This document shows, one piece after another, positions 12,795 to 53,693 of a stretch of DNA of 64,000 bases. The DNA comes from an uncultured Comamonas sp. (lineage in GTDB: Bacteria > Pseudomonadota > Gammaproteobacteria > Burkholderiales > Burkholderiaceae_C): positions 1-64,000 of the forward strand of contig CABIIJ010000011.1 in the NCBI GenBank assembly GCA_902175065.1, in the 5' to 3' direction. Below the pieces are notes generated by a model that ran no database searches, was not told the origin of the DNA, and worked only from the letters and a program-made list of their open reading frames with translations. Both the position numbers and the translations under genes were made by a program. Numbering within the stretch: position 1 is the stretch's first letter; every line of letters starts with the position of its first letter.

Positions 12795-12870
12795 GGGGTG
12801 CTTCCTCTTTTTGCTGCCCTCCCCCGGCGCCGGTAAGCGCCAGGCTTGGCAGGCAATAGATTCTTCAAGA

Positions 12871-12956: not shown

Positions 12957-12963
12957 TTAAGGA

Positions 12964-17884: not shown

Positions 17885-18492
17885 CGACCACTCCTCCTGC
17901 TTCCGAACCCACCTTCTCCCTGTGCGTCTACTGCGGCTCGCGCCCCGGCAGCGATGCTGCCTACCTGGAAGCGGCCACCGCCGTGGGCCAATGGATCGGC
18001 CAGCACGGCGGCCAACTGGTCTACGGCGGCGGATGCACCGGCCTGATGGGACAGGTGGCCGAGGCCACCCGCCAGGCGGGCGGGCGCGTGGTGGGCATCA
18101 TCCCGCAGGCGCTGGTCGACCGGGAAATGGCCAACACCCTGTGCGACGAGCTGCACATCGTCGCCAACATGCACCAGCGCAAGGCCATGATGGCCGAGCG
18201 CAGCCACGCCTTTCTGGCCCTGCCCGGCGGCATCGGCACTTTCGAGGAGCTGTTCGAGGTCTGGACGTGGCGCCAACTGGGCTACCACGACAAGCCCATC
18301 GGCCTGCTGAACGTGGCCGGGTATTACGACAGCCTGCTGCAGTTCCTGCATTCCACGGTCACCCACGGCTTCATGGGCGACTGGCAGATGGACCTGGTGC
18401 ACAGCGGCGAGCACATCCCGCAATTGCTCGCCCATCTGGTCGAGGCCGCCGGCACCAGCCTGGAAAGCCAGGCGCTGGCCCAGAACATCTAG
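17881..18492 (+). CDS. LOG-family nucleoside 5'-monophosphate phosphoribohydrolase
   Basis: This 203-residue Rossmann-fold enzyme belongs to the TIGR00730 (LOG, 'lysine decarboxylase-like') family, which cleaves the N-glycosidic bond of nucleotide monophosphates and in some species releases cytokinins. The motif PGGIGTFEELFEVWTWRQLG contains both hallmark pieces (PGGxGTxxE and the catalytic Arg region). CVYCGSRPGSDAAY and VYGGGCTGLMG are the N-terminal nucleotide elements. The GTG start overlaps the dgkA stop (GTGA). A real cytokinin role cannot be read from the sequence. Confidence 0.9.
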   Translation: MTTTPPASEPTFSLCVYCGSRPGSDAAYLEAATAVGQWIGQHGGQLVYGGGCTGLMGQVAEATRQAGGRVVGIIPQALVDREMANTLCDELHIVANMHQRKAMMAERSHAFLALPGGIGTFEELFEVWTWRQLGYHDKPIGLLNVAGYYDSLLQFLHSTVTHGFMGDWQMDLVHSGEHIPQLLAHLVEAAGTSLESQALAQNI

Positions 18493-18493
18493 G

Positions 18494-18596
18494 GATAGGA
18501 TTAAAAAAAGAAGCTTCTTCCGCTTGAGAACAAAGGATTTCAGGTATTTTTGATACTGAAATCCTTTTGATAAAAGCGGGGCAAGCTATCCTTTTC
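18494..18596. repeat. AT-rich palindromic element, copy 3 (convergent gap)
   Basis: Outer parts GGATAG...AAGCTTCTTCCGCTTGAG and AAGCGGGGCAAGCTATCC flank an inner dyad AAGGATTTCAG..CTGAAATCCTT at about 18533-18566. It fills the gap between two convergent genes and has T runs at both ends, so it probably ends both transcripts. Confidence 0.85.
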
Positions 18597-18598
18597 AA

Positions 18599-20113: not shown

Positions 20114-20128
20114 GACGGTCTCCTTTCT

Positions 20129-21211
20129 TCAAATACAAGCGCTGTTGGCGTACACCGCCCCGAACCGGTTGGCCAGGAAAACCGGCAGGGCCACCGCCTC
20201 CTGCCGCACCAGGCCGGTGCAGGGCAATTGCCCCTGGGCCAGCAAGTCCAGCACGGCGCAGATGCTGGATGCCGTGCTGTTCTGGATGGCGCTGATCCTG
20301 CGGCCATGCAGGGTGGTGCCCAGAATTTCCTGGGCATAGTTGCGCTGCAGCAGGCGCCCGCCCTGCCGGCCGCTGACGCTGATGAAAACCACCACCACAT
20401 CCTGTTCGGTGGCGGGCAGCGCCCCTTCCAGCACCTGCCGCAGCAAGGCACGGTCGTCGCGCAGGCGCAGCTCATCGAGCAGAAAGCGCATCAGCCGCGC
20501 ATGGCCGGGATAGCGCAGGGTTTTGTAATTCAGTTCGCGCACCCGCCCCTGCAGGCTGTGCGCCAGGCTGCCCAGACCGCCGGAGGTGTTGAAGGCCTCG
20601 TAATCCTGCCCCAGCACGCGCAGTTGCTCCAGCCCTTGCAGGGCGGGGACGGTTTGCAGGCATCCGTCGGCAATCGCTTCGCACGGCTGGCAATACTCGT
20701 TGATGACGCCCTCGGTGCTCCACGACAGCTGGTAGCCCAGGGCGTTGTCGGGAAAGCGCGGCAGCGCACCGACGCGCAGGTGCACGGTATCCAGGCTGTC
20801 AAACCCCTGGCACAAATGCGCCGCAGCCATCGAGACAAAGCCCGGCGCCAGCCCGCATTGCGGGATCAGCGCCGTGCGGGCATCCGCCGCCAGCGCCTGG
20901 ATGGCCTGGGTGCTGGCCACGTCCTCGGTCAAGTCCAGGTAGTGCGCCCCGACGGCCACCGCTGCCTGCGCCAGCCGCGCCATCTGGTGAAACGGCACGG
21001 CACTGAGCAGGGCAAATGCCCCGGCCAGCCGGTGGCGCACGTCATCGTCCGGCGCCAGCAGCGCGGGGGTGATGGCCGGGTGGTTCGGCAACGCCGCCAG
21101 CGCCTGGGCGTTGGGGTCGAATACCTGCACCTGGTAGTCCCCGCTATGGGCCAGCAAGCTGGCAATGGTGGCCCCGATACGGCCCGCCCCGACAACAGCA
21201 ATCTTCTGCAT
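20129..21211 (-). CDS. saccharopine-dehydrogenase-like oxidoreductase (candidate lysine 6-dehydrogenase)
   Basis: This 360-residue enzyme has an N-terminal Rossmann fold (IAVVGAGRIGATIASLLA) and the saccharopine-dehydrogenase C-terminal domain (GLAPGFVSMAAAHLCQGF, ALGYQLSWSTEGVINEYCQP). The length is that of a lysine 6-dehydrogenase rather than a fused or fungal saccharopine reductase. With the ALDH7 gene 15 bp downstream, the pair could take lysine to aminoadipate: oxidation at C6, then of the semialdehyde. AAGGAGG lies 5 bases before the ATG. An upstream start would add 9 residues. The substrate is inferred from family and context. Confidence 0.8.
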   Translation of the reverse strand: MQKIAVVGAGRIGATIASLLAHSGDYQVQVFDPNAQALAALPNHPAITPALLAPDDDVRHRLAGAFALLSAVPFHQMARLAQAAVAVGAHYLDLTEDVASTQAIQALAADARTALIPQCGLAPGFVSMAAAHLCQGFDSLDTVHLRVGALPRFPDNALGYQLSWSTEGVINEYCQPCEAIADGCLQTVPALQGLEQLRVLGQDYEAFNTSGGLGSLAHSLQGRVRELNYKTLRYPGHARLMRFLLDELRLRDDRALLRQVLEGALPATEQDVVVVFISVSGRQGGRLLQRNYAQEILGTTLHGRRISAIQNSTASSICAVLDLLAQGQLPCTGLVRQEAVALPVFLANRFGAVYANSACI

Positions 21212-21287
21212 GGCACCTCCTTGGATGGAACATTCCATAAAAAATTATTGAATGTCAGCCGGTGTTGCGCCATACGGCTTTACGCGC

Positions 21288-21316
21288 ATAAAAAAACGCC
21301 CCTGACGGGGCGTTTC
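21288..21316 (-). terminator. rpoD terminator
   Basis: Reading the minus strand, AACGCCCC GTCA GGGGCGTT followed by seven T forms an 8-bp stem-loop with a perfect U tract about 20 bases beyond the rpoD stop. It separates rpoD from the lysine-degradation pair. Confidence 0.92.
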
Positions 21317-21333
21317 TGGGTGAGGCGACTGCT

Positions 21334-23757
<2,424 letters not shown>

Positions 23758-24012
23758 TTGGGTTCCTTTTCGCAATATCCACCAGCACGCCGAGAGAGCA
23801 CTCCCCCTGGCGGGCAAATCCGTTCAATTGAGTCTGCATCGCACGCACCTGGGGCCAGGGCGTGGGGAGTCAAGCCTCCCGGGCAAGATGGTGGGCGATC
23901 ATTTGGTGTGCAGTCCTTGCGGGAGTGGGTCAGAGCCTGATGCTCAACGTGAATGCGCTTTCACGCGACCCGGTTCGGAGGTGCTGCTGTCGCTCTTGCC
24001 GATAAGGGCGCA

Positions 24013-24040
24013 ATTATAGGCGTTCGCCGCAAACTCAAGA
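24013..24040 (-). promoter_or_regulatory. sigma-70 promoter for rpoD
   Basis: On the minus strand a perfect -10 TATAAT (24013-24018) is preceded by TCTTGA (24035-24040) at 16 bases. It lies in the 312-bp dnaG-rpoD gap and would give a leader of about 250 bases. Nothing else recognisable is in that gap apart from a GC-rich stretch near 23860-23940. Confidence 0.7.
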
Positions 24041-24069
24041 CCAAAATCCAGAAAAATGTCAAGCCCTGT

Positions 24070-25935
24070 CTATAAATTTTTACTGCGTTCCAGCAACGCC
24101 TGGTAACGCTGGCGCAATTCCTGGTTGCCCGGGTCGCTGGCGTAGGCCTGGGCCAACTGGGTCTGCAACTGGCGGATGCGCTGGGTCAGGAGCGGTTTCA
24201 GGATGCTGCGCAGCTCCTGGTGCTGGGCCTGGGGGTCGTCTTCCGGGTGTCCCAGGGGGCCGCTCATCAGCCGCTGCACCCATTCCCGGTGCCCGGTGGC
24301 ATCCAGTTGCTGCTGCACCGCTGCCCAACTTTGGGTGCCGTGCGCCTGGTGAAACGCCTCCGCCCAGGCAAACAGGGGGCCATGGGGCGCGGGCAGATGC
24401 ACCAGGGCATCCCAGTCATCGTTGTCCAGCCGTTCCAGCAGGGCCATGTGCCCCAGCAGCAGGCGCACGGCCTGGTCCGGCCCGGTGGTGATTTCCACCC
24501 GGCGGCTGGGCGGCGGGGGGGCGGACTGCCGCCCCCGGCCCGGCTCCCACGGCAGGCGCTCGCCCCGGCGATTTCCGTGTCCCTGGTAGCCATCCTGCGG
24601 GGGCGGGGCCATCGTGACCGGAGCGGTATTGCGGATGCTGCGCTGCCAGATGGCTTCCAGTTCCTGCGCCGGCAGGGCGATGTGCTGGGCCAGTTCGTCC
24701 AGCACCAGCCGCTTCAGGGTGCTGGGGGGCAGCAGACTCCACAGCGGCTGCGCCTGGTTGGACAGGCGTGCCCGGCCCGGCGCGGTGCCCAGGTCGCAGC
24801 CCTCGCTGGCCACCTGCAATAAAAACTGATTGAACGGCATGGCGGCGTGCACCATGCGGGTGAAGGCATCGGCACCGTGGGTGCGGATGAAGCTGTCCGG
24901 GTCGTGTTCGGGCGGCAGAAAAAGAAATTTCACGCTGCGCGTGTCATTGACCAGCGGCAGCACCGCCTCCAGCGCCTTGCGGGCGGCCCGCTGCCCGGCG
25001 GCATCGCCGTCGAAGCTGAACACCACCGCCTCGGTAAAGCGAAACAGTTTGTGCACATGCTCGCCGGTGCAGGCCGTGCCCAGCGTGGCCACGGCGTTGG
25101 GAAAACCCAGTTGCGCCAGCGCCACCACGTCCATATAGCCCTCGCACACCAGGGCGTAGCCGGCCTCGCGCAGGTCGGTGCGGGCCTCGTGCAGGCCGTA
25201 CAGCTCGCGGCCCTTGTGGAACAGCGGCGTTTCCGGCGAGTTGAGGTACTTGGGCTTGTCGTCCCCCAGCACGCGCCCGCCAAAGCCGATGCACTGGCCT
25301 TTCACGTCCCGGATCGGAAACATGATGCGGTCGCGGAAGCGGTCGTAGCGCTTGTCCTCGTCCTCGGCGCTGTGGATGACCAGGCCGCCCTCTTCCAGCA
25401 AGCGGCTGGTGTAGTCGGGAAAGACGCTGGCCAGGTAATTCCACCCCGCCGGGGCATAGCCCAGGCCGTAGCGGCTGCTCACCGTGCCGGAGACGCCCCG
25501 GCGCTTCAGGTAGTCGATGGCATGGGGGGCGCTCTTGAGCTGTTCGCAATATGCCTGGGCGGCCCGCTCCATGGTGGCCACCAGGCTGTCCTGCTGTTGT
25601 TTGACGGCCTGGCGCTGGGCGCGTTGCTGGGGGGAAATGTCCTCCTGCGGCACCTGCATTCCCACCTCCTGGGCCAGGGACTGCACGGCCTCCATGAACT
25701 CCATGCCGGTGTGCTCGCGCAGGAAGGCGATGGCGTCCCCGCCCTTGCCGCAACCGAAGCAATGGAAAAACTGTTTGACCGGGCTGACGCTGAACGAGGG
25801 TGATTTCTCCCCATGGAACGGGCACAGCCCCATGAAGTTGGCCCCGCTTTTTTTCAGCGGCACATAGCGCCCCACGACATCGACGATATCGACGCGCTGG
25901 AGCAGGTCTTGGATAAAGGAAGCAGGAATCGACAC
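24070..25935 (-). CDS. dnaG: DNA primase
   Basis: This 621-residue primase makes RNA primers at the replication fork. The zinc finger is C38-P-F-H41 with C59 and C62, the RNA-polymerase-like core has the TOPRIM motifs VCEGYMDVVAL and SFDGDAAGQRAARKALE, and the C-terminal helicase-binding part follows after a Pro/Arg-rich linker (about 430-470). The start is GTG, giving MSIPASFIQDLLQRVDIVDV, the normal N-terminus, but I see no good ribosome site. It is followed by rpoD, as in the dnaG-rpoD macromolecular synthesis pair; rpsU is not in the window on the upstream side. Confidence 0.96.
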   Translation of the reverse strand: MSIPASFIQDLLQRVDIVDVVGRYVPLKKSGANFMGLCPFHGEKSPSFSVSPVKQFFHCFGCGKGGDAIAFLREHTGMEFMEAVQSLAQEVGMQVPQEDISPQQRAQRQAVKQQQDSLVATMERAAQAYCEQLKSAPHAIDYLKRRGVSGTVSSRYGLGYAPAGWNYLASVFPDYTSRLLEEGGLVIHSAEDEDKRYDRFRDRIMFPIRDVKGQCIGFGGRVLGDDKPKYLNSPETPLFHKGRELYGLHEARTDLREAGYALVCEGYMDVVALAQLGFPNAVATLGTACTGEHVHKLFRFTEAVVFSFDGDAAGQRAARKALEAVLPLVNDTRSVKFLFLPPEHDPDSFIRTHGADAFTRMVHAAMPFNQFLLQVASEGCDLGTAPGRARLSNQAQPLWSLLPPSTLKRLVLDELAQHIALPAQELEAIWQRSIRNTAPVTMAPPPQDGYQGHGNRRGERLPWEPGRGRQSAPPPPSRRVEITTGPDQAVRLLLGHMALLERLDNDDWDALVHLPAPHGPLFAWAEAFHQAHGTQSWAAVQQQLDATGHREWVQRLMSGPLGHPEDDPQAQHQELRSILKPLLTQRIRQLQTQLAQAYASDPGNQELRQRYQALLERSKNL

Positions 25936-25987
25936 GGCAGCGATTGTCTTGCAAATTCCGAATTCAGCCGCTTGAATGAAAATTCAA

Positions 25988-26082
25988 CAAAAAGAGAGCT
26001 GCTTCCGCTGTAAAAAACTATGCTTCAGATATGAAAACATATAAAAATCAATAAACACAAGTGGAATAAGCTATATTTTTCA
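25988..26082. repeat. AT-rich palindromic element, copy 4
   Basis: Arms AGAGAGCTGCTTCCGCTG (25993) and AAGTGGAATAAGCTATATTT (26059) bracket a degraded inner dyad CTTCAGATATGAAAACATAT. It lies between the divergent dnaG and agenet-like genes, unlike most copies, which sit at 3' ends. It aligns closely with the copy inside the E2 gene, including its approximate 76-bp core length. Confidence 0.8.
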
Positions 26083-26187
26083 AAGTGAAAACGCCTGCAA
26101 CCACCGCCCGTGGTGTGCTGACCGAAATCCTTTCCGGTGCGGCAAAATGACCGCCTGCCTGCACCGATTCCTCCACAGGAGCGCCCC

Positions 26188-26646
26188 ATGCCACCGATCT
26201 GCCGCCTTCCCCTGTCCTGCCTCCTGACCCTGGCAGCCTTTTCTGCCCACGCGGCAGACCAATGGTCCAACGATTACGTCGTGCCGCAGGCACCGGCGGC
26301 CCGATCGGCCAGCACACCCCAGTCGGGCCTGGCGCAGTTGTGCCGTACCGGCAACCGCGTGGAAGCCCAGTCGGCAGGGCAATGGTATGAAGCCCGCATC
26401 CTCGGGGCAGACCCGCACTACCAGACCTGCGATGTCACCTACACCGGTTTTGGCAAGCATTTCGACGAAACCGTCAGCCTGCGCCGCGTGCGGCCCTACA
26501 CCGGCAACGTGACCCCTCCTCCCAAGCCTTCCAAGCCCGCCACGGGGCAAGGCCAGCACCGCCGCGACATCCCGGCAGGCGCGGCCCCCATTTGCAGCTC
26601 CATCCCCCGCAGCGACGGCATGGGCAATACCAGCTATTGCTACTGA
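26188..26646 (+). CDS. secreted protein with a Tudor/agenet-like domain
   Basis: This 152-residue protein has a clear signal peptide (LSCLLTLAAFSAHAA, cut about residue 24) after AGGAG at 6 bases. Residues about 55-100 read RVEAQSAGQWYEARILGADP with CDVTYTGFGKHFDETVSLRR, the pattern of small Tudor/agenet-like barrels with conserved W-Y-A and Y-G/D-E positions. A Pro/Lys linker and a Cys-containing tail ending SYCY follow. It is probably periplasmic or surface-exposed; four cysteines in the mature part could pair. The function is unknown. Its stop overlaps the convergent LysR stop by 7 bp. Confidence 0.75.
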   Translation: MPPICRLPLSCLLTLAAFSAHAADQWSNDYVVPQAPAARSASTPQSGLAQLCRTGNRVEAQSAGQWYEARILGADPHYQTCDVTYTGFGKHFDETVSLRRVRPYTGNVTPPPKPSKPATGQGQHRRDIPAGAAPICSSIPRSDGMGNTSYCY

Positions 26647-27557
26647 CCCGGCCCGGACACGGGGGGCTGCAAATACGCCTGCTGCTCGCGCACCACGTCT
26701 TTCAGGAAACGCCACACCGCCTGGATGCGGGGCACGGCCTTGGCTTCTTCGGGCACGCTCATCCAGAAGGTGCGGGTAAACCGGGCCTGCCCGGGCAGCA
26801 CCCGCACCAGGGTGGGGTCGCGGTCGGCCATGAACGCGGGCAGCACGGCCAGACCGACCCCGGCACGCACGGCCTCGTACTGCGCCGCAATGCTGGTGCT
26901 GCGAAACACGAACCGGGCAGGCCGGTAGAGCTGCGCCAGAAGCTGCAATTCCTTGGAAAACAGCAAGTCGTCCACGTAGTGGACGAACTGGTGGTGGCGC
27001 AAATCGTCGCTGCTGCGCACCAGGGGGCGGCGGGCCAGGTACTGGCGCTCGCCGTACAGATACAGGTGGTAGTCGGTGAGCTTGCTCACCACCACCGAGC
27101 CGCGCTTGGGGCGTTCCAGCGAGATGACGATGTCGGCCTCGCGCCGGCTCAGGTGCAGCAGGCGCGGCAGGGCCAGCAGGTCGATCGACAACTGCGGATA
27201 GCGCAGCGCCAGCAGCGCCAGCTGGCGTGACAGCAGCACCGTGCCCAGCCCTTCGGTCACGCCCACGCGCACCAGTCCGGCAGGGTGGGCCTCGTCGGTG
27301 CCATCGGGCAGGGCGACCTGCTCCACGCCGCGCACGGCTTTTTCCATGGCCTGCACGGCGGGGAGCAACTGCTGGCCCGCCTGCGTGAGCGTCAGCCCCC
27401 CCTTCTGCCGTACGAACAGCGTCTGGCCCATGATTTTTTCCAGCGCCTGCAAGCGCCGCGCCACCGTGGTGTGTTCCACGCCCAGCAGCCGCGCCGCGCC
27501 TGCCAGGGAGCCGGCCTGCGCCAGGGCGGCAAAAAAACGCAAGTGATCCCAATCCAT
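26640..27557 (-). CDS. LysR-family transcriptional regulator
   Basis: This 305-residue protein has the N-terminal winged helix WDHLRFFAALAQAGSLAGAA with RLLGVEHTTVARRLQALEKI, and a C-terminal effector domain. It is divergent from mmsA, 213 bp apart, so it most likely controls the valine catabolism genes, which is inference. The effector-domain sequence YEAVRAGVGLAVLPAFMADR is typical of the sub-group that acts on single amino-acid or aldehyde pathways. The intergenic region holds an inverted repeat with 22-bp arms between the two start sites. Confidence 0.9.
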   Translation of the reverse strand: MDWDHLRFFAALAQAGSLAGAARLLGVEHTTVARRLQALEKIMGQTLFVRQKGGLTLTQAGQQLLPAVQAMEKAVRGVEQVALPDGTDEAHPAGLVRVGVTEGLGTVLLSRQLALLALRYPQLSIDLLALPRLLHLSRREADIVISLERPKRGSVVVSKLTDYHLYLYGERQYLARRPLVRSSDDLRHHQFVHYVDDLLFSKELQLLAQLYRPARFVFRSTSIAAQYEAVRAGVGLAVLPAFMADRDPTLVRVLPGQARFTRTFWMSVPEEAKAVPRIQAVWRFLKDVVREQQAYLQPPVSGPGQ

Positions 27558-27653
27558 GAGGGTGCAGTTTAACTGTGCTTTTTTGCAGACAAGAACTGCA
27601 AAAACAGGTATTGCCCTATCAAATTTGCACATTACCATGGGCAGCAGTCCGAC

Positions 27654-27732
27654 TAAGGATCCTCTGCACGAATCGAGCGGTAAGCCTGCACGCAGATGCA
27701 AGCGGCGCGGCGATTTGTGCAGAGGATCCTTA
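27654..27732. repeat. 79-bp element with 22-bp inverted ends
   Basis: TAAGGATCCTCTGCACGAAT (27654) is matched by its complement ending at 27732, 21 of 22 bases. The interior has GAGCGGTAAGCCTGCACGCAG. Related ends or interior occur at 46650 (AAGGATGCTCTGCACGAAT) and 52766 (CTGCACAAATGGAGCGATAA). It could be a very short non-autonomous element, or a fold-back regulator of the lysR/mmsA promoters. No target-site duplication is clear. Confidence 0.7.
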
Positions 27733-27770
27733 AAGACCGGCCTCTTTTTCTTACCAGGAGACATCCCCCC

Positions 27771-29270
27771 ATGAGCATCCCTACCGTCAAGCTGCTGATC
27801 AACGGCGAATTTGTCGAATCGAAAACCACCCAGTGGCGCGATGTGGTCAACCCCGCCACGCAGGAAGTGCTGGCCCGCGTGCCCTTTGCCACGCAGGACG
27901 AGATCAACGCCGCCGTGGCTGCCGCCAAGGAAGCTTTCAAGACCTGGAAGAAAACCCCCATCGGCGCCCGCGCCCGCATCTTCCTGAAGCTGCAACAGCT
28001 CATCCGCGAAAACATGGGCGAACTGGCCGCCCTGCTGACCGCCGAACAGGGCAAGACCCTGCCGGATGCCGAAGGCGACGTTTTCCGTGGCCTGGAGGTG
28101 GTGGAACATGCCGCCGGCATCGGCAACCTCCAACTGGGCGAGCTGGCCAACAACGTGGCCAACGGGGTGGATACCTATTCGGTGCTGCAACCCCTGGGCG
28201 TGTGCGCAGGCATCACCCCGTTCAACTTCCCGGCCATGATTCCGCTGTGGATGTTCCCCATGGCCATTGCCACCGGCAACACCTTCGTGCTGAAACCTTC
28301 CGAGCAAGACCCCATGGTCACCATGCGCCTGTGCGAGCTGGCGCTGCAAGCGGGCATTCCTGCCGGGGTGCTGAACGTGATTCACGGCGGTGAAGATGCC
28401 GTGAACGCCATTTGCGACCACAAGGACATCAAGGCCATCAGCTTCGTCGGCTCCACCCACGTCGGCACCCACGTCTACAACCGCGCCAGCCTGAACGGCA
28501 AGCGCGTGCAGTGCATGATGGGCGCGAAGAACCACGCCATCGTGCTGCCCGATGCCAACAAGGAGCAAACCTTGAACGCCATCGCCGGTGCCTCCTTCGG
28601 CGCCGCCGGCCAGCGCTGCATGGCCCTGCCCGTGGTCATGCTGGTGGGCGAAGCCCAAAAATGGCTGCCCGACCTGATCGAGAAGGCCAAATCCCTCAAG
28701 ATCAGCGGCGGCACCGAGCCGGGCACCGACCTCGGCCCCGTCATCTCGTGCAGCGCCCTGAGCCGCATCGAGGGCCTGATCGAACGCGGCATTGCCGATG
28801 GCGCCAAGCTGGTACTCGATGGCCGCAAGCCCACCGTGCCCGGCTACGAAAAAGGCAACTTCGTCGGCCCGACCATCTTCAGCGGCGTGAAACCCGGCAT
28901 GAGCGTGTACGACCAGGAAATCTTCGGCCCCGTGCTGTGCGTGGTCGAGGCCGCCACGCTGGACGAAGCCATCGCCTTCATCAACGACAACCCCAACGGC
29001 AACGGCACCGCCATCTTCACCCAGTCGGGCGGCGCAGCACGCAAGTTCCAGGAGGAGATCGACGTCGGCCAGGTCGGCATCAACGTGCCGGTGCCGGTGC
29101 CCGTGCCGCTGTTCTCCTTCACCGGCAGCCGCGCCTCCAAGCTGGGCGACCTCGGCCCCTACGGCAAGCAAGTCGTGCTGTTCTACACGCAGACCAAGAC
29201 CGTCACCGCCCGCTGGTTCGACGACAGCACCCTGGGCCAGGGCGTGAACACCACCATCAGCCTGAAGTAA
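27771..29270 (+). CDS. mmsA: methylmalonate-semialdehyde dehydrogenase (CoA-acylating)
   Basis: This 499-residue enzyme converts methylmalonate (or malonate) semialdehyde with CoA and NAD+ to propionyl-CoA (acetyl-CoA), the last step of valine breakdown. [20 protein letters not shown] and the catalytic cysteine in [15 protein letters not shown] are diagnostic, as is the C-terminal [20 protein letters not shown]. It begins after CAGGAG at 10 bases, is followed by an intrinsic terminator, and then by isobutyryl-CoA dehydrogenase and mmsB in the same direction. The catabolic enoyl-CoA hydratase and 3-hydroxyisobutyryl-CoA hydrolase are not in the window. Confidence 0.95.
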
Positions 29271-29277
29271 GCCCCCT

Positions 29278-29303
29278 GCGGCCAGCCCTTGCTGGCCGTT
29301 TTT
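29278..29303 (+). terminator. terminator after mmsA
   Basis: CGGCCAG and CTGGCCG form a 7-bp stem with a short loop followed by TTTTT. It would reduce but perhaps not abolish read-through into the dehydrogenase gene 73 bp downstream. Confidence 0.85.
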
Positions 29304-29375
29304 GCTTAAAACCGCTGCTTGGGCTTGCCAGTCAAGCCCAAGCAGCCATGAAAACTACAAGAAAAGGAGAACCAC

Positions 29376-30542
29376 ATGGACTTTGAACTCAGCGCAGACC
29401 AACGTGCCTTTGCCGACACCGCGCGGCAATTCGCCCAGGCCGAGCTGGCCCCCCATGCCGCCGAGTGGGATGCCCAGGGCATCTTCCCCGTGGACGCCAT
29501 CGCCAAGGCGGGCGAGCTGGGCTTTTGCGGCCTGTACGCGCCCGAATGCATCAGCGGCCTGCAACTGCCCCGGCTGGATGCCACCCTGGTGTTCGAGGAA
29601 CTGGCCGCCATCGACCCCTCCACCACCGCCTTCATCACCATCCACAACATGGCGACCTGGATGCTGGGCACCTGGGCCACCGACGACGTGCGGGCGCAAT
29701 GGGGCGAGGCCTTGACCAGCGGCCAGAAGCTGGCCAGCTACTGCCTGACGGAACCGGGCAGCGGCTCGGACGCGGCCAGCATCAAGACCCGTGCCGAGCT
29801 GGTGGGCAGCGAATACGTCATCAACGGCAGCAAGGCCTTCATCAGCGGCGCGGGCAGTACCGACGTGCTGGTGCTGATGGCCCGCACGGGCGATGCGCAA
29901 TCGGGTGCCTCCGGCATCAGCGCCTTTGCCGTGCCTGCCGACCTGCCCGGCATCACCTACGGCAAGAAGGAAGAAAAAATGGGCTGGAACAGCCAGCCCA
30001 CGCGCGTCATCAACTTCGACAACGTGCGCATCCCCGCCAACCACCTGCTGGGCCGCGAGGGCGAGGGCTTCAAGATCGCCATGAAAGGGCTGGACGGCGG
30101 GCGCATCAACATCGCCACCTGCTCCGTCGGCGCGGCGCAAGGCGCTTTGACCCACGCCCAGCGCTACATGCAGGAGCGCAAGCAGTTCGGCAAACCGCTG
30201 GCCGCCTTCCAGGCGCTGCAATTCAAGCTGGCCGACATGGCCACCGAACTGGTCGCCGCGCGACACATGGTGCGGCTGGCTGCAGCCAAGCTCGACGCCG
30301 GTGCGCCCGATGCCAGCACCTACTGCGCCATGGCCAAGCGCTTTGCCACCGATGCGGGCTTTGGCGTCGTCAACGACGCGCTGCAACTGCACGGCGGCTA
30401 CGGCTACATCCGCGAATACCCGCTGGAGCGCCTGCTGCGCGACGCCCGCGTCCACCAGATTCTGGAAGGCACGAACGAGATCATGCGCGTCATCATCGGG
30501 CGGCGGATGCTGGACGGCGATGCGCCGGACGCCATCCGATGA
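29376..30542 (+). CDS. acyl-CoA dehydrogenase (isobutyryl-CoA dehydrogenase-like)
   Basis: This 388-residue FAD enzyme should convert isobutyryl-CoA to methacrylyl-CoA in valine breakdown. The signatures are LTEPGSGSDAASIKT, QFGKPLAAFQALQFKLADMA, QLHGGYGYIREYPLERLLRD, and the catalytic glutamate in ARVHQILEGTNEIMRVIIGR. AAAAGGAG precedes the ATG. Placement between mmsA and mmsB is the basis for the substrate call; short/branched-chain acyl-CoAs such as 2-methylbutyryl-CoA are also possible. Confidence 0.92.
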   Translation: MDFELSADQRAFADTARQFAQAELAPHAAEWDAQGIFPVDAIAKAGELGFCGLYAPECISGLQLPRLDATLVFEELAAIDPSTTAFITIHNMATWMLGTWATDDVRAQWGEALTSGQKLASYCLTEPGSGSDAASIKTRAELVGSEYVINGSKAFISGAGSTDVLVLMARTGDAQSGASGISAFAVPADLPGITYGKKEEKMGWNSQPTRVINFDNVRIPANHLLGREGEGFKIAMKGLDGGRINIATCSVGAAQGALTHAQRYMQERKQFGKPLAAFQALQFKLADMATELVAARHMVRLAAAKLDAGAPDASTYCAMAKRFATDAGFGVVNDALQLHGGYGYIREYPLERLLRDARVHQILEGTNEIMRVIIGRRMLDGDAPDAIR

Positions 30543-30547
30543 ACCCA

Positions 30548-30635
30548 TAAACATAGCTGCTTCCACATGTCATATATGGATTCAAGAAACAAAATACTCT
30601 GAAATCCATATAAAACCAGTGGAAACAGCTATTAG
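30548..30635. repeat. AT-rich palindromic element, copy 5
   Basis: Arms ATAGCTGCTTCCACATG and CCAGTGGAAACAGCTATTA enclose TATATGGATTCA / TGAAATCCATATA. Compared with other copies, the outer arm has GTGGAA where they have GCGGAA, and the change is present on both sides, so pairing is kept. It lies between two genes of the same predicted operon, so it is probably not a full stop signal there. Confidence 0.82.
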
Positions 30636-30674
30636 AAAACAAGCATTCCATCCACCACCACAGGAGACACCACC

Positions 30675-31571
30675 ATGCAAATCGGATTCATCGGCCTGGG
30701 CAACATGGGCGGCCCCATGGCCATCAACCTGGCCAAGGCCGGGCACAGCGTCAAGGCTTTCGACCTGAGCCAGGAAGCCATCGCCAAAGTCGTCGCCGCA
30801 GGCGGACAGGCCGCCGGCAGCGCACAGGACGCTGCACAGGGCGCAGAAGTCATCGTCACCATGCTGCCCGCCAGCCAGCACGTCGAAGGGCTGTTCCTGG
30901 GCCGCGACGGCCAAAGCGGCCTGCTGGCCAGCATCGCCCAGGGTGCCCTGGTCATCGACAGCTCCACCATCGCCGCCGCCACCAGCCAGAAAGTGGCCCG
31001 GGCACTAGAGGCCGCAGGCATCGCCTTCATCGACGCGCCCGTCTCCGGCGGCACCGGCGGGGCCATTGCCGGCACCCTCACCTTCATGGTCGGCGGCAGC
31101 GCCGAGCACCTGGAACGCGCCCGCCCGCTGCTGGAGAAAATGGGCAAGAACATCTTCCACGCCGGCAGCGTCGGCGCGGGCCAGACGGCCAAGATCTGCA
31201 ACAACATGCTGCTGGGCATTTTGATGGTCGGCACGTCCGAAGCCATCGCCCTGGGCGTGGCCAACGGCCTCGACCCCAAGGTGCTCAGTGAAATCATGCG
31301 CCGCAGCTCCGGCGGCAACTGGGCGCTGGAGGTCTACAACCCCTACCCCGGCGTACAGGAAGCCAGCGCCGCCACGCGCGGCTACACCGGCGGCTTCGGC
31401 ACCGACCTGATGCTCAAGGACCTGGGCCTGGCGCAGGAAAACGCCACCGCCGTCAAGGCCAGCACCCCCCTGGGCGGCATGGCCCGCTCCCTCTACGCCG
31501 CGCACAGCCTGAGCGGGCATGGCGCAGAAGATTTCTCCAGCGTGATCAAGATGCTGCAAAAACAGGGGTAA
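30675..31571 (+). CDS. mmsB: 3-hydroxyisobutyrate dehydrogenase
   Basis: This 298-residue NAD+ enzyme oxidises 3-hydroxyisobutyrate to methylmalonate semialdehyde, the substrate of MmsA. IGFIGLGNMGGPMAINLAKA is the cofactor-binding start, DAPVSGGTGGAIAGTLTFMV is the family substrate motif, and the catalytic lysine lies in GQTAKICNNMLLGI. AGGAG precedes the ATG by about 9 bases. It is the last gene of the mms group and ends in a strong terminator. Confidence 0.95.
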   Translation: MQIGFIGLGNMGGPMAINLAKAGHSVKAFDLSQEAIAKVVAAGGQAAGSAQDAAQGAEVIVTMLPASQHVEGLFLGRDGQSGLLASIAQGALVIDSSTIAAATSQKVARALEAAGIAFIDAPVSGGTGGAIAGTLTFMVGGSAEHLERARPLLEKMGKNIFHAGSVGAGQTAKICNNMLLGILMVGTSEAIALGVANGLDPKVLSEIMRRSSGGNWALEVYNPYPGVQEASAATRGYTGGFGTDLMLKDLGLAQENATAVKASTPLGGMARSLYAAHSLSGHGAEDFSSVIKMLQKQG

Positions 31572-31597
31572 CAAGGCGGCTTGTCACCACCAACGGC

Positions 31598-31634
31598 ACG
31601 GGCGCTGCAACGCGGGTTGCAGCGCCCGTTTTCC
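31598..31634. terminator. terminator between mmsB and the protease gene
   Basis: ACGGGCGCTGCAA and TTGCAGCGCCCGT pair in a 13-bp stem with a 6-base loop followed by TTTT. It lies between convergent genes and probably ends mmsB; the minus-strand T run is weaker. Confidence 0.9.
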
Positions 31635-31663
31635 TTGGCGTTCATTGGTGTTTTCCTGCGGGC

Positions 31664-32170
31664 TTACCGTGGCCGCAGTTCCAGCACATCGTCGCGCATC
31701 AGCACGTCGAACTGGCGCAGAAAGTTCTGGCCCAGCAGGGCATCCTGCCCGCTGCGGCCGGTGTAGCCGGTGCCCACCGTCAGGTTCTGCACTTGCAACG
31801 GCCCCACGGTGATGTGCTGCGTGCGCACCAGCCGCCCGGTGCGCGTGCCGTTGGCCGTGCGAAATTGCACCACCTCCCCGCCGTGCAGCCCGGCGCTTTC
31901 GGCCAGAGCATCGGTCACGGCGATGTAGGTGGCGCCGGTATCGACCATGAAGCGCACCGGCTGGCCGTTGATGCTGCCATCGGCGTAGAAATGCCCGTCC
32001 CGGTGCCGCTCGATCTGCAGGCTGCCGCTGCTGGTGACCACGGCGGCCGATGGCTGCAAGTAGCGTTCCATGCCCAGGTACAGCAGGCCCAGCACCGCCA
32101 CCCAGAAGATGGCGATGCCTGCGTGCATACGCCATACCGCATGGCGGGTGGTCTGGCTGCGTGTATTCAA
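31664..32170 (-). CDS. retropepsin-like aspartic protease (TIGR02281 type)
   Basis: This 168-residue single-domain aspartic protease is anchored by an N-terminal helix (IAIFWVAVLGLLYLGMERYL). The active-site motif is FMVDTGATYIAVTD, with the second structural glycine motif near GQNFLRQFDVLMRDD and LELRP at the end. Such proteins act as dimers. The best start is TTG (giving MNTRSQTTRH) 9 bases after AAGGAG; an ATG 14 codons later lacks a ribosome site. It is encoded 29 bp after the pirin gene. Its substrate is unknown. Confidence 0.85.
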   Translation of the reverse strand: MNTRSQTTRHAVWRMHAGIAIFWVAVLGLLYLGMERYLQPSAAVVTSSGSLQIERHRDGHFYADGSINGQPVRFMVDTGATYIAVTDALAESAGLHGGEVVQFRTANGTRTGRLVRTQHITVGPLQVQNLTVGTGYTGRSGQDALLGQNFLRQFDVLMRDDVLELRPR

Positions 32171-32199
32171 GATCGGTTTCTCCTTGTGCCGATGGTTGT

Positions 32200-33084
32200 T
32201 CAGGGCAGCGCCGGTGCGGGCAGGCGGCGGCCTTCGCCCCCAGGCACCGTGCCAAAGCGGGCATCCTGCGCCTCCCAGGCGGCGCGGTAGGCGCGGATAC
32301 CGGGCATGTCGGCAGCAACGAAGTTCCACCACATGGTGACGGCCTCGGCAAAGGGCGCTCCGCCGATCAGCAGCAGGCGTGTGTTGGCCTGCAGTTGCAA
32401 CGCCAGGCTGTCGCGCCCGGGGGCGAGGTAGGCCAGTTCGTCCTGCGGGAAAGCCGCGCCATCGATGCCGAAGCCGCCGGTCAGCGCCATCAGGCCGTAT
32501 TCGAAGTCTGGCCGCAGCGCCAGATGCACGGGGCCAGCGGCATCCCCCAGCACCTCCAGCCCGACCAGGGGGGAGTGCAAGGCCGTCGGCGCGGTGTGCC
32601 CGTCGTAGCAACCCGCCATCAGCGACCAAGTGCAGCCCTGCGCCTGCCACTGCGGCAGTTGCGGGTAGTGGGCAAAGGCGGGCGGCTGGTCGGCCACGGC
32701 ATGGGGCAAGGCAATCCACAGTTGCGCGGCGTGCAGGCGCGTGCCGGGGGCCAGGGAGTCTTCGGTGTGCGAGATGCCGTAGCCCGCCGTCATCAGGTTG
32801 ACCTGCCCGGGGCGCACGATCTGCTCCGACCCCAGGCTGTCGCGGTGCAGGATTTCGCCCTCGATCACCCAGGTAAAGGTTTGCAGGCGCGTATGCGGAT
32901 GCGCCCCGACGTGCATCCCCTGCCCCGGCGCAAACCGGATCGGGCCGAGGTGGTCGAGAAAGCACCAGGCGCCAATCATGCGCCGCCCGCGCGTGGGCAA
33001 GGCCCGGGTGATCTCCATGCCCTCGCCCAGCGTGCTTTTGCGGGCGGGAATGCGGTCAATGGTGGAAGCAACGGGCTGAGTCAT
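32200..33084 (-). CDS. pirin-family cupin protein
   Basis: This 294-residue bicupin carries the pirin N-terminal signature GAWCFLDHLGPIRFAPGQGM with HVGAHPHTRLQTFTWVIEGE (metal histidines) and HRDSLGSEQIVRPGQVNLMT. Some pirins are quercetinase-like, others modulate transcription; nothing here decides. AAGGAG precedes the ATG. Its neighbour is the aspartic protease gene. Confidence 0.9.
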   Translation of the reverse strand: MTQPVASTIDRIPARKSTLGEGMEITRALPTRGRRMIGAWCFLDHLGPIRFAPGQGMHVGAHPHTRLQTFTWVIEGEILHRDSLGSEQIVRPGQVNLMTAGYGISHTEDSLAPGTRLHAAQLWIALPHAVADQPPAFAHYPQLPQWQAQGCTWSLMAGCYDGHTAPTALHSPLVGLEVLGDAAGPVHLALRPDFEYGLMALTGGFGIDGAAFPQDELAYLAPGRDSLALQLQANTRLLLIGGAPFAEAVTMWWNFVAADMPGIRAYRAAWEAQDARFGTVPGGEGRRLPAPALP

Positions 33085-33135
33085 GGCACCTCTCCTTGAA
33101 TCTGTGGCCGGCACATTATCCCCACGGGCTTCTCA

Positions 33136-33296
33136 GAACCTGTTTACGATCTCCGCGCGGGTGTGCAGTCGCGGCCTCGGGCGGTCTGCGGTGTTGCAAA
33201 TCCTCGCCATAGCACCGCTATGGCTGCGGTTTGCGCCTAGCAGCCCATCCCGATCCGCATCCCGCACCCCTTCGCGCGGAGATCGTAAACAGGTTC
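33136..33296. mobile_element. 161-bp MITE-like element, copy B
   Basis: This copy has the same inverted ends GAACCTGTTTACGATCT and the same length of 161 bp as the element at 6551, in the opposite orientation. Few bases differ over the whole length. TCA is duplicated directly at 33133-33135 and 33297-33299. Together with TTA/TTA at the other copy this gives a TNA target preference. It lies between the pirin promoter and the terminator of the oxoacid dehydrogenase operon. Confidence 0.87.
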
Positions 33297-33302
33297 TCAC
33301 AG

Positions 33303-33340
33303 AAAAAAACAGGCGCTGCGGTTTCCCGCAGCGCCCGTTT
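33303..33340 (-). terminator. terminator of the oxoacid dehydrogenase operon
   Basis: On the minus strand GGGCGCTGCGG GAAA CCGCAGCGCC is followed by TGTTTTTTT. The long GC stem and U tract lie about 20 bases beyond the lpd stop. Confidence 0.93.
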
Positions 33341-33359
33341 CAAGGGTCGGCACATCCGA

Positions 33360-34760
33360 TCAGATATGCAGCGCCTGTCCCAGTGCCTTGAGCGCGGCTT
33401 CCTGCACCGCTTCGCCCAGGGTCGGGTGGGCGTGGATGGTGTGGGCCACATCCTCCAGGCGCGCGCCCATTTCCAGGGATTGGGCAAAGGCGGCGACCAG
33501 TTCGGCCACGCCCTGGCCGACGGCCTGCCAGCCCAGGATGAGGTGGTCGCTCTTGCGGGCCACCACGCGCACGAAGCCGCCGGTGGCCTCCAGCGTCATG
33601 GCACGGCCATTGGCAGCGAAGGGGAAGGTGGCGGTGATGGCCTCCACACCCGCCGCCTCGGCCTGGGGCGGGGTTTGGCCAACCACCACCACCTCGGGGT
33701 CGGTAAAGCACACCGCCGGGATGGCCATGGGCTCAAAACGCCGGTTCTTGCCGGCAATCTGCTCGGCCACGCATTCGCCCTGGGCCATGGCGCGGTGGGC
33801 CAGCATGGGTTCGCCGGTCACGTCGCCAATGGCCCAGACATTGCGCATGGAGGTGCGGCAATGCGCATCGACCGCGACAAAGCGCCCCGCCATGTCCAGC
33901 TGCAGCCCTTCCAGGCCAAAGCCCTGGGTGCGCGGGCGGCGGCCCACGGCGACCAGCACGCGCTCGGCCGGCAGGGCAAATTCGTCGGCCCGGGCATTGC
34001 GCACGTGCACGCCCTGCTGCGCGTCGTAGCCGGCCACGCTGCAGCCCAGGTGCAGCACTACGCCGCTGCGCTTCAAGGCTTCCAGCACGGGCTGGGTCAG
34101 CTCTTCGTCATAGCTGGGCAGTACGCGCTGGGCAGCTTCCACCACGGTGACTTCCACGCCCAGCTTGCGGTAGGCCATGCCCAGCTCCAAGCCGATATAG
34201 CCTGCGCCAACCACGACCAGCCGCTTGGGCAGCACATCGGGCGAGAGCGCATCGGTGGACGACCAAATGGCCCCGCCAAACGGCATAGAAGGCAGCGAAA
34301 CCGGCTCCGAGCCCGTGGCCAGCAGCAGATGCTCGCAATGCACGCGCACCGGTTCGCCGCCGTCGTGCGGGGTGATGACGGCGGTTTTGCCATCCTCAAT
34401 CTGCGCCCAACCGCGCTGCACCTGCACCCCGGCCTTGCGCAGCAGCGCCCCGACACCGCCGGACAGGCGGGCGACGATGCCATCCTTCCAGCGCACGGTT
34501 TGCGCAATGTCGATCTGCGGATTGGTCACCTTGATGCCCAGGGGCGAGGTGCCTGCGCCAAACTGGCGGGCGTGCGCAAACTCTTGCGCCGCATGGATCA
34601 GCGCCTTGGACGGGATGCAGCCAATGTTCAAACAGGTGCCGCCCAGGCTGGCCCCTTCGGCCAGCACCGTAGGAATGCCCAGTTGCCCGGCGCGGATGGC
34701 GGCCACGTAGCCGCCGGGGCCGCCGCCGATGACGAGCAGTTTGGTGGAAATTTCTTTCAT
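33360..34760 (-). CDS. lpdA: dihydrolipoyl dehydrogenase (E3)
   Basis: This 466-residue flavoprotein reoxidises the dihydrolipoyl arm of the 2-oxoacid dehydrogenase complex with NAD+. The disulphide is Cys43/Cys48 in [13 protein letters not shown], followed by the second nucleotide fold [20 protein letters not shown] and the C-terminal His-Glu pair region HAHPTLGEA. It is the fourth gene after E1-alpha, E1-beta and E2, so it probably serves this complex rather than pyruvate dehydrogenase. The E2 gene ends 18 bp upstream. Confidence 0.95.
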
Positions 34761-34778
34761 CTTTTTATCCTCTCCCGG

Positions 34779-36101
34779 TTAATCGACAAACAGCAGTGCC
34801 GGGGTTTCCAGCAGGGCGCGGATGGCCTGGATGAATTGCGCCGCATCCATGCCATCGACCACGCGGTGGTCAAACGACGAGGACAGATTCATTAGCTGCC
34901 GCGCCACCACTTGCCCGTTGCGCAGCATGGGGCGCTCGACCATGCGGTTTACGCCGACGATGGCCACCTCTGGATGGTTGATCACCGGGGTGCTGACGAT
35001 GCCGCCCAGCGCCCCCAGGCTGGTCAGGGTGATGGTGGAGCCGGTCAGCTCCTCGCGGCCCAGCTTGCCGGATTTGGCCCCCTCGGCCACGCGGGCAATC
35101 CCGGCGGCGCTGGCCCACAGGTCCAGGCTTTCGGCATGGCGCAGCACGGGCACCATCAGGCCGCCGTCGGTTTGCGCGGCAATGCCCAGGTGGACGGCCT
35201 CGTAGCGGGTAACCACCCCGGCATCGTCGTCATACCGGGCGTTGATCTGCGGAAACTGGCGCAGCGCCAGCACCATGGCGCGGGCCAAAAACGGCAGCAG
35301 CGTGAGCTTGCCGCGCGTAGCGCCGTGGATTTTGTTGAGCTGCTGGCGCAGCTGCTCCAGCTCGGTCACGTCCACTTCTTCCACATAGCTGAAGTGCGGG
35401 ATGCGGCGCTTGGCCTCCTGCATCTTCTGCGCAATCTTGCGGCGCAGGCCGATGACGGGAATCGCTTCCTCGCCGTGGCGCTCAACATACTGCGGGTTGC
35501 CCCCCAGCACCGGGCCCTGGCCAGCGGCAAAGGCTTCCAGGTCGGCGTGGGAAATCTGCCCGGCCGGGCCGCTGCCGTGTACCAGGCGCAAGTCCACCCC
35601 CATGTCCAGGGCGCGGCGGCGCACCGAGGGCGCAGCCAGCGGGCGCTCCCCTTCCTTGCGGGCCTGGGCCACGGGGGCGCGGGCGGCAGGGCGGGCTGCC
35701 GGAGCAGATGCTTGTTTCGGAGCTTGTACCGCTGGTATTGCAATGTTTTCAGATGCTTTTGTATCTGATTGCTTTGATTTTTCTGCGGGAGCAGCTGCAA
35801 TTTGTATAGCTGGAGCCGGAGATGCCGCCGGTGCAGCATCGTCTTTTAAGTTGCCTTCGCCCTCGACTTCCAGGCGAATCAACTCGGCACCGACCGAAAT
35901 CATCTGCCCCACGGCCGCGCCCAGGGCAATCACTTTGCCATGCACATGGCAGGGAATTTCCACGCTGGCCTTGTCGGTCATGACATCGGCCACGGGCTGG
36001 TCTTCCTTGACGCTCTCACCCAGCGCGACGTGCCAGGCAACCAGTTCCACCTCAGCAATGCCTTCGCCGATATCGGGCACGCGAATAACGTAAATACCCA
36101 T
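34779..36101 (-). CDS. bkdB: branched-chain 2-oxoacid dehydrogenase E2 (dihydrolipoyl acyltransferase)
   Basis: This 440-residue core subunit transfers the acyl group from the lipoyl arm to CoA. The lipoyl domain (residues 1-80) carries Lys44 in TDKASVE, then a linker rich in A/P, the subunit-binding domain at about 154-190 (APSVRRRALDMGVDLRLVHG), and the catalytic domain ending SSSFDHRVVDGMDAAQFI. Residues about 102-127 are coded by an AT-rich palindromic repeat of the dispersed family, giving a Lys/Ser/Gln-rich segment in an otherwise Ala/Pro linker. GGAGG lies at the end of the preceding E1-beta frame. Confidence 0.94.
   Translation of the reverse strand: MGIYVIRVPDIGEGIAEVELVAWHVALGESVKEDQPVADVMTDKASVEIPCHVHGKVIALGAAVGQMISVGAELIRLEVEGEGNLKDDAAPAASPAPAIQIAAAPAEKSKQSDTKASENIAIPAVQAPKQASAPAARPAARAPVAQARKEGERPLAAPSVRRRALDMGVDLRLVHGSGPAGQISHADLEAFAAGQGPVLGGNPQYVERHGEEAIPVIGLRRKIAQKMQEAKRRIPHFSYVEEVDVTELEQLRQQLNKIHGATRGKLTLLPFLARAMVLALRQFPQINARYDDDAGVVTRYEAVHLGIAAQTDGGLMVPVLRHAESLDLWASAAGIARVAEGAKSGKLGREELTGSTITLTSLGALGGIVSTPVINHPEVAIVGVNRMVERPMLRNGQVVARQLMNLSSSFDHRVVDGMDAAQFIQAIRALLETPALLFVD
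35721..35796. repeat. AT-rich palindromic element, copy 9 (inside the E2 gene)
   Basis: Read on the minus strand, this 76-bp stretch begins AGCTGCTCCCGCAG, contains the dyad TCAGAT..ATCTGA, and ends AGCGGTACAAGCT. It aligns end to end with copy 4 (AGCTGCTTCCGCTG, CAGATATG, AGTGGAATAAGCT). GC content is visibly far below that of the surrounding gene. It is read in frame as residues about 102-127 of the E2 linker with no stop codon. Confidence 0.8.
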
Positions 36102-45666: not shown

Positions 45667-45756
45667 AAAAATAGAGCTATTTCCGCCGGAAAACAAATAA
45701 TCTCAAGCATAAAAATATCTGAAATCGTTTATTTATCAGCGGAACAAGCTCTTAAA
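45667..45756. repeat. AT-rich palindromic element, copy 6
   Basis: Arms AAATAGAGCTATTTCCGCCG and TCAGCGGAACAAGCTCTTAA enclose AAATAATCTCAAG..and ATATCTGAAATCGTTTATTT. It follows the methyltransferase stop and is followed by the thiolase terminator remnant. Confidence 0.8.
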
Positions 45757-45857
45757 AAAAGAAACACCGCCAGACCTTGCGGCCTGCGCGGTGTTCTTAC
45801 GCAACAAAAGCAAGCCAACGCTTACAGCACTTCAAACACCCCGGCTGCCCCCATGCC
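45754..45857 (-). pseudogene. thiolase 3'-end remnant with its terminator
   Basis: Bases 45813-45857 match 46836-46880 at 43 of 45 positions. Read on the minus strand they encode [11 protein letters not shown] plus TAA, the exact last residues of the intact thiolase. Next to it is an equivalent terminator: AACACCGC / GCGGTGTT (45763-45794) with a T run on minus at 45754-45760. No thiolase sequence lies upstream of these codons. It is either a trace of a deleted paralogue or a duplication made when the islet to its right arrived. Confidence 0.82.
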
Positions 45858-51527: not shown

Positions 51528-51602
51528 TCGGTAGCGTTGCAAATCCTCGCCGTGGCAGTGCCATGGCGAGGATTTACGCCTTGCATCCATCCCGATCCGC
51601 AA
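51528..51602. repeat. decayed 161-bp-type element between the binding-protein paralogues
   Basis: GTTGCAAATCCTCGCC..GGCGAGGATTT (51535-51575) and CATCCCGATCCGC match the core of the 161-bp elements, including the inner palindrome around AAATCCTCGCC. The terminal repeats are lost or strongly changed (AAAACCTGCTCATAG at about 51613). Confidence 0.65.
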
Positions 51603-53588: not shown

Positions 53589-53693
53589 TTTAGCTATAAA
53601 AAAGCAAGCTTCTTCCGTTTTTGAAATAAGGATTTCAGATGCAAAACTATCTGAAATCCTTTGTTCTCAAGCGGAAAAAGCTATTTTTATAAT
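53589..53693. repeat. AT-rich palindromic element, copy 7
   Basis: TAGCTATAAAAAAGCAAGCT and CGGAAAAAGCTATTTTTATA flank the inner dyad AAGGATTTCAGATG..CTATCTGAAATCCTT (53628-53661), the longest perfect inner stem of the family. It follows serB and has T runs at both edges. Confidence 0.85.

Follow-up and report, generated by a model that had tools for sequence, protein, structure and literature searches.

The gene for the E2 acyltransferase of a 2-oxoacid dehydrogenase complex occupies positions 34779–36101 on the minus strand of the window (the whole stretch of 64,000 nucleotides analysed) and codes for 440 amino acids. Three domains were recognized on this strand: a lipoyl domain (PF00364, residues 6–77, positions 35871–36086), an E3/E1 subunit-binding domain (PF02817, residues 154–189, positions 35535–35642) and the catalytic 2-oxoacid_dh domain (PF00198, residues 210–438, positions 34788–35474). 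The gene had been named bkd E2 in the initial annotation, and the name rests on that alone; NCBIfam assigned no equivalog, as no cut-off was reached, and the protein is thus not filed as the E2 of PDH or OGDH. A copy of a dispersed palindromic family lies in frame between the first two domains. The full 92-nt model of the family covers positions 35713–35804 (minus strand, residues about 100–130) and the palindromic core of 76 nt, which starts and ends with AGCT, covers positions 35721–35796 (minus strand, residues 102–127). This core is one of 166 sites in the genome corresponding to the pattern AGCTNNNNNCGCN{50,54}GCGNNNNNAGCT. The T-rich flank of the family unit is missing from the E2 copy. 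The GC content was 0.42 in the block and 0.66 in the remainder of the gene. In an AlphaFold2 model of modest quality (18 sequences, mean pLDDT of 62.6), residues 81–154 showed a pLDDT below 50 and no secondary structure. The model places the block within this low-confidence linker, where it is predicted to belong to the hinge that joins the lipoyl domain to the subunit-binding domain.

Eight intergenic copies of the family were present in the window, all outside called genes and listed without a strand. A covariance model, called R1, was built from these eight copies aligned without E2, and the window was scanned with the filters off. The copies were located at positions 5213–5304 (R1 score of 83.1 bits), 12868–12959 (76.2 bits), 18504–18595 (90.7 bits), 25989–26080 (76.6 bits), 30547–30638 (80.0 bits), 45667–45758 (80.9 bits), 53599–53690 (92.0 bits) and 58399–58490 (79.2 bits). 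The second of them adjoins a match to the ilvH leader RNA of Rfam (12799–12866). No Rfam family matched the palindrome in the window at the gathering score, this leader and three tRNAs being the only matches. Three tRNA genes stand in tandem at 60795–61212, with 86-nt copies 98–100% identical. The window also contains a second, unrelated dispersed repeat, a 168-nt inverted pair (6550–6717 and 33130–33297) which is 95% complementary, with shorter relatives at 31–91 and 51534–51585.

In the whole genome, R1 gave at least 150 rows from 1017 candidates, the two strands being listed apart, and the 166 sites with intact arms compared with a single one for the reversed pattern (arms-only pattern). 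Of 100 sites examined, 99 had a core of exactly 76 bp, although the pattern allowed 74–78. A unit of 76 bp had initially been described; this was corrected to about 92 nt, the 76-nt core being extended by A-rich and T-rich flanks. One site of 75 nt inside a gene (L236) showed none of the features of the family and was discarded as a fortuitous match. The pairwise identity of 96 non-coding copies had a mean of 0.64 and a maximum of 0.86, and these low values indicate that the family is old. In the 150 best R1 rows, a mostly intergenic set which includes both strands of many sites, stem covariation was 0.189, as compared to 0.094 in shuffled alignments and 0.041–0.073 in slid structures, and 87% of the pair cells were paired versus 33–47% in slid structures. 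Within the genus Comamonas, 36 of 53 genomes contained R1 matches at E 1e-6 or better.

The E2 block was matched by R1 on the coding strand, over the full length of the model (positions 1–92) and without a gap, with 37.4 bits (E 3.2e-6); the opposite strand scored 28.6 bits. The top match outside the family across the 64 kb reached 12 bits, 25 bits below E2. For each of the eight window copies, the alignment with E2 was better than 3000 out of 3000 mononucleotide shuffles. In the E2 stem, 16 of 23 pairs were Watson–Crick, against a mean of 10.7 in synonymous recodings with uniform codons (P 0.0007) and 11.0 in recodings with the codons of the genome (P 0.005). The palindrome is therefore not a by-product of the amino-acid sequence. 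The initial annotation, made from sequence alone, had proposed that a 76-bp family member lies in frame inside E2, that its core at 35721–35796 codes for residues 102–127 of the linker, and that the block is far less GC-rich than the gene. All three claims held, the first by virtue of the R1 model excluding E2, the shuffles and the recodings. The base-by-base match claimed with the intergenic copy near 25993 held only in part: the alignment is gap-free, but the two sequences are 64% identical, and one must be reversed, the other orientation giving 42%. The initial interpretation would have been refuted by a loss of similarity under a proper model with shuffled controls, or by the presence of the same linker, without a gap, in all relatives. 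Neither was the case, as the similarity survived and an R1 match was found in only a few of 40 E2 loci. The earlier observation is confirmed, and the E2 block is a true member of the family. Among the copies found in the genome, that of LpdA came closest to the E2 block (0.76), and the best of the 96 non-coding copies examined was 74% identical.

Thirteen further in-frame copies were found in the genome, in genes identified with NCBIfam and Pfam. R1, which was trained on none of the in-frame copies, was scored on the better strand of each. The UvrD copy, between the helicase and Tudor domains (78.6 bits), and the HrpA copy (42.9 bits) came from a frame-blind sample of pattern sites. The copies of LpdA (37.4 bits) and AceF (34.2 bits) are located in lipoyl linkers, those of RpoN (61.8 bits), UvrA (54.0 bits), TopB (53.9 bits) and RbbA (50.3 bits) between or behind domains, and those of Era (56.1 bits), MurD (49.3 bits) and LigA (25.9 bits, E 0.004 over 144 kb) at the N-terminus. 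The PHB depolymerase copy forms a C-terminal tail (40.9 bits) and that of RNase E lies in the C-terminal region (30.7 bits). LigA, RNase E and the PHB depolymerase tail are the weakest cases. A peptide profile made from the E2, UvrD and HrpA blocks, which rank top by construction, was searched in the same genome. Among 24 candidates inspected, 11 were accepted on coding evidence, and the other 13 were left out, being intergenic or lacking coding support. Since most of the 148 rows of the peptide search were not inspected, the number of 14 in-frame genes is a lower bound.

All 14 blocks were read in the frame of E2 (A/GCT ... A/GCT). This frame is an observed feature, with the restriction that 11 of the 14 copies come from a search bound to one frame. 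In the 92-nt intergenic copies, the coded frame was open in 48 of 192 strand readings, compared with 29 and 6 for the other frames. On the coding strand, 12 of the 14 blocks have an A-rich loop; the two exceptions are RpoN, with a neutral loop, and LigA, with a T-rich one. The eight bases on the 3' side contained a mean of 1.6 T in the in-frame blocks versus 5.1 in the intergenic copies; against this loss of the T-run, UvrD keeps five and Era four T out of eight. The mean number of Watson–Crick pairs out of 23 was 16.5 in the in-frame blocks, 18.5 in the intergenic copies and 4.4–7.8 in slid structures. The combined P of the 14 blocks against synonymous recodings was about 1e-23, with LpdA, AceF and LigA being singly weak when recoded with genome codons (P 0.05–0.10). 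The 3' flank began with CCTG in 7 of 14 in-frame blocks versus 8 of 190 intergenic flanks counted strand-wise (P 7e-6), and all 13 aligned HrpA orthologues start with CCT there, five of them with CCTG. This enrichment may reflect a common origin or selection for the coded Ala-Pro, which could not be told apart. A subfamily restricted to coding copies was rejected, the in-frame blocks showing an identity of 0.62 to each other and 0.61 to intergenic copies.

The sharing of the blocks with related genomes was observed directly. Of the 40 E2 loci scanned with R1, matches were found only in L002, L031 (the same as L111) and L032 (the same as L112), the last one being weak (E 0.05). This E2 was present in 5 of 53 genomes of the genus, the fifth of which (L003) had no R1 match. 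The block is common to two other Comamonas genomes and weakly to a third, and is therefore not recent. In HrpA, 14 of 25 anchored linkers had an R1 match at E <0.01, at one site, including those of C. granuli and Acidovorax sp. 210-6. The R1 type was seen in 5 of 27 UvrD linkers and in 10 of 26 UvrA linkers, the latter including one gene twice (L380 and L385) and one paralogue (L387). The anchor method by which the linkers were cut missed 6 of 169 loci. As a separate observation, the open frame of one UvrA (L345, G000:C88) spans 2012 codons and seems to contain a tandem of two UvrA copies. Beside it stands another UvrA whose open frame has 1041 codons (G000:C52:9796-10461 is listed with the pair).

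Additional residues at the block were demonstrated for two proteins. HrpA has 48 residues there and the solved HrpA (chain 9ggr) has nine, an excess of 39; UvrA has 39 residues and the solved UvrA (chain 3ux8) has five, an excess of 34. These values compare with a block of about 31 residues. No length gap with respect to homologues was seen at the block of UvrD or of RpoN. The alignment of E2 genes for presence or absence of the block revealed no empty site with a clean gap of 25–31 residues, and the median length of E2 linkers was 68 amino acids both with the block and without any repeat type, with no difference of 25–31 residues (85 linkers, two genomes being represented twice). The equality of the medians suggests that the E2 block takes the place of other linker sequence and does not lengthen the linker.

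Inside genes, the palindrome appeared to be eroded. In the 13 HrpA orthologues, 65% of the pair cells were standard, compared to 87% in the mostly intergenic set. Among 500 shuffles (mean 0.052), 12 attained their covariation of 0.071, and slid structures gave up to 0.066 with as many double changes or more. As the slid controls nearly match, the idea of a palindrome upheld by compensatory change inside genes was found unconvincing in HrpA. Coded palindromes probably decay while the frame stays open, and are likely to be tolerated relics rather than working hairpins.

The location of the ordinary copies was also very uneven. Among 100 sites examined, 94 were intergenic (50 between tandem genes, 44 between convergent genes and none between divergent genes), four lay inside genes, one of these being a chance match, and two were unclear. 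The gene pairs of the window, taken as baseline, were 40 tandem, 5 convergent and 6 divergent, which corresponds to an excess of convergent sites (Fisher, P 3e-6) and a deficit of divergent ones (P 0.0015). The sample was mixed and is no census (high-scoring model matches, the window, and pattern sites from contigs 1 to 28), the surrounding genes were called with a simple codon-usage caller, and the baseline is a single 64-kb window. The median distance from stop codon to core was 17 nt, and the flanks had on average 5.3 A out of eight on the 5' side and 4.9 T out of eight on the 3' side. It is likely that the ordinary copies act as bidirectional transcription terminators, a function inferred from location, hairpin and flanks, without termination data. 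A consensus terminator scan of positions 18000–36000, which demands a short loop, listed none of the three intergenic copies located there; within the E2 block, it reported two hairpins, both on the non-coding strand.

Other repeat types occupied the same linkers in other genomes. A short palindrome found in E2 linkers elsewhere in the Comamonadaceae corresponds to the outer arms of the family without the inner hairpin. Dispersed copies of it occurred in 19 of 28 genomes, the control gave no match, and the E2 copies of L035 and L040 were, by their coordinates, among the dispersed ones. The short type was present in 19 of 85 E2, 6 of 27 UvrD, 3 of 26 UvrA and 2 of 25 HrpA linkers. In the E2 linkers of L033–L054 (Acidovorax, Simplicispira, Giesbergeria and relatives), a short palindromic repeat codes for APAPASQAQAA-like peptides. 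A C-rich repeat coding for SPHPNPPPEGEG was seen in 7 of 85 E2, 0 of 27 UvrD, 3 of 26 UvrA and 2 of 25 HrpA linkers; its motif was present in 14 of the 388 loci fetched, with a maximum of six occurrences in a single locus. In Comamonas badia (G085; L049, L292 and L367), the E2, HrpA and UvrA linkers all carry a repeat of the SPHPNPPPEGEG type. Reversed controls gave 0 and 1 match out of 163. The short-type test allows three substitutions, and the matches in E2 of L050, L053 and L071 and some of those in UvrD are doubtful, as they lie at this limit.

In four genomes with at least 135 R1 rows, the R1 type was present in all four genes (16 of 16 linkers, one of them weak with E 0.05); these four are close kin of C. 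denitrificans. The 26 linkers of seven genomes with at most 25 R1 rows contained 4 R1, 13 short and 4 C-rich types and 5 without any, one linker bearing both the short and C-rich types being counted as short. In 13 other Comamonas genomes with at least 14 R1 rows, no R1 match was found in the UvrD linker; one of them (G044) had the short type in HrpA. A bolder reading, which is possible at most, is that the linkers of E2, HrpA, UvrA and UvrD are standing exchange sites into which various palindromic repeats are swapped, in the same frame, depending on the lineage of Comamonadaceae. It is weakened by the lack of the R1 type in UvrD of R1-rich Comamonas outside the C. denitrificans clade. These data suggest a turnover within the linkers, and decay or internal deletion of one old insertion is at least as likely.

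We propose, with a probability of about 0.85, that the E2 block is a palindromic element turned coding, derived from a dispersed family of terminator-like repeats. In this model, the ordinary copies sit just behind genes and resemble bidirectional terminators, and the copies in E2 and the 13 other genes have become coding in a single frame. Among non-coding copies, this frame is the one that most often lacks stops, and it yields small, polar residues. The A-rich loop on the coding strand gives codons for Lys instead of Phe, and the T-run expected to end transcription has been mostly lost. The block may have been kept because it lies in a flexible linker or at a protein terminus tolerating 25–31 polar residues. 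The initial suggestion that a flexible linker tolerates such an insert fits with the position of the E2 block in the low-pLDDT linker, although the tolerance, like the neutrality of the coded peptide, is inferred. Arrival by insertion is also inferred, and the agent is unidentified: no transposase was recognized as mover, and no match to PF01797 (Y1_Tnp, RAYT) was found in the genome, whereas control matches were obtained in 5 of 14 named genomes. A RAYT as mover of the family was rejected on this ground.

The most serious alternative is a single ancient insertion per gene followed by vertical inheritance, the other repeat types arising by internal deletion or decay without renewed invasion or exchange. 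Several observations speak for it. The HrpA copies of many Comamonas genomes and of Acidovorax sp. 210-6 occupy a common site, and 12 of 13 HrpA copies have a closer HrpA orthologue (0.70–0.86) than any non-coding copy of the present genome, the near-identical pair L286/L287 being set aside. The short type consists of the outer arms minus the inner hairpin, GCTTATTCAAC in the left arm of the UvrD block is common to Acidovorax and the present genome, and the repeat content of a genome does not simply dictate its linkers, as seen in the 13 R1-bearing genomes without R1 in UvrD. On the other side, the linkers of the R1-rich genomes are all of the R1 type as compared to 4 of 26 in the R1-poor ones, but the rich four are close kin. 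An unrelated C-rich repeat occupies the same HrpA and UvrA linkers in two genomes (L049/G085 and L033/G071), and the HrpA block of the present genome shows 0.64 to other orthologues versus 0.70 to the best non-coding copy. On balance we give the single insertion slightly less than even odds.

The other explanations are weaker. The in-frame palindrome could be kept because it works as a hairpin in the mRNA, for instance by delaying translation from one domain to the next. The excess of pairing in the 14 copies over synonymous recodings and the HrpA covariation rarely reached by shuffles are in its favor, but the 65% of standard pairs in HrpA and the similar slid controls are those expected of a decaying relic, and we consider this hairpin improbable. 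It is equally hard to sustain that the E2 block was copied by recombination from the lipoyl-domain linker of LpdA or AceF rather than inserted directly. Both genes bear in-frame copies in these linkers and the LpdA block is the nearest to E2; its advantage over the best non-coding copy (0.74) amounts, however, to about two bases of 76, and the neighboring linker sequence is, by eye, not common. Finally, linker sequences evolve rapidly and Ala, a common residue, is encoded by parts of the motif, so that a Lys/Ser-rich linker might happen to look palindromic. Such an effect of chance or composition is practically ruled out by the background maximum of 12 bits, far from the score of E2, and by the shuffles and recodings.

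The coded element of terminator-like origin that we favor can be compared to known systems. Palindromic repeats lying in frame have been described in Rickettsia as well as in several other bacteria (PMC3733652). The parallel with Rickettsia drawn in the initial annotation is supported, with the reservation that such repeats are not confined to this genus. The Rickettsia palindromic elements (RPE) are dispersed palindromes, some of which are inserted in frame within genes whose proteins are functional (PMC3733652). The Comamonas family is similarly dispersed mainly outside genes, with some copies open and in frame in conserved genes. It differs by its host, a GC-rich betaproteobacterial genome, by its rigid 76-bp core and by the use of one frame in 14 cases. 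The RPE come from another lineage and presumably another sequence family, as judged without an RPE sequence in the comparison, and the likeness drawn here is one of kind. Additional residues relative to homologues, as in RPE, were seen for HrpA and UvrA and not for E2, UvrD and RpoN. The REP repeats tagged with GTAG or CGTC (Di Nocera et al. 2013) are mostly located a short distance downstream of stop codons, where the neighboring genes are convergent or tandem, and also occur inside ORFs, notably those of UvrA, UvrD/REP helicase, DNA ligase and RNA helicases; RAYTs are tied to GTAG repeats (PMC3733652). The gene context is the same and the target genes overlap strikingly with the in-frame bearers described here, but the Comamonas unit is longer and has no consistent tag, with GTAG near one end in 9 of 96 copies and CGTC in none of 96. 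Enterobacterial RU elements within genes (Delihas 2007) are small mobile repeats forming part of annotated genes (PMC2759123). They resemble the Comamonas family as small repeats read as gene parts and differ as longer, MITE-like units (103–168 bp) of other hosts; no sequence comparison was made.

No account of the Comamonas palindrome family was found in the open-access literature searched. Comamonas and Acidovorax are absent from the main text of PMC3733652 (supplements excluded), and only CRISPR is mentioned in the passages of PMC2755013 that were consulted. In-frame palindromic repeats, including those of UvrD-type and RNA helicases, are already known (PMC3733652). The family itself, its frame, and the occupation of the same linkers by other repeat types in other Comamonadaceae seem to be new. 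The present results extend in-frame palindromic repeats to Comamonas, with 14 genes in one genome and orthologues in dozens of genomes, and such a number of cases allows one to ask how non-coding repeats turn into protein sequence. They also account for odd low-GC, Lys/Ser-rich Comamonas linkers that could pass for foreign or functional inserts. The presence of different repeat families in the same linkers makes the choice between recurrent capture and single insertion directly testable. If the exchange-site reading were true, terminator-like DNA repeats would be interchangeable linker cassettes over long evolutionary times.
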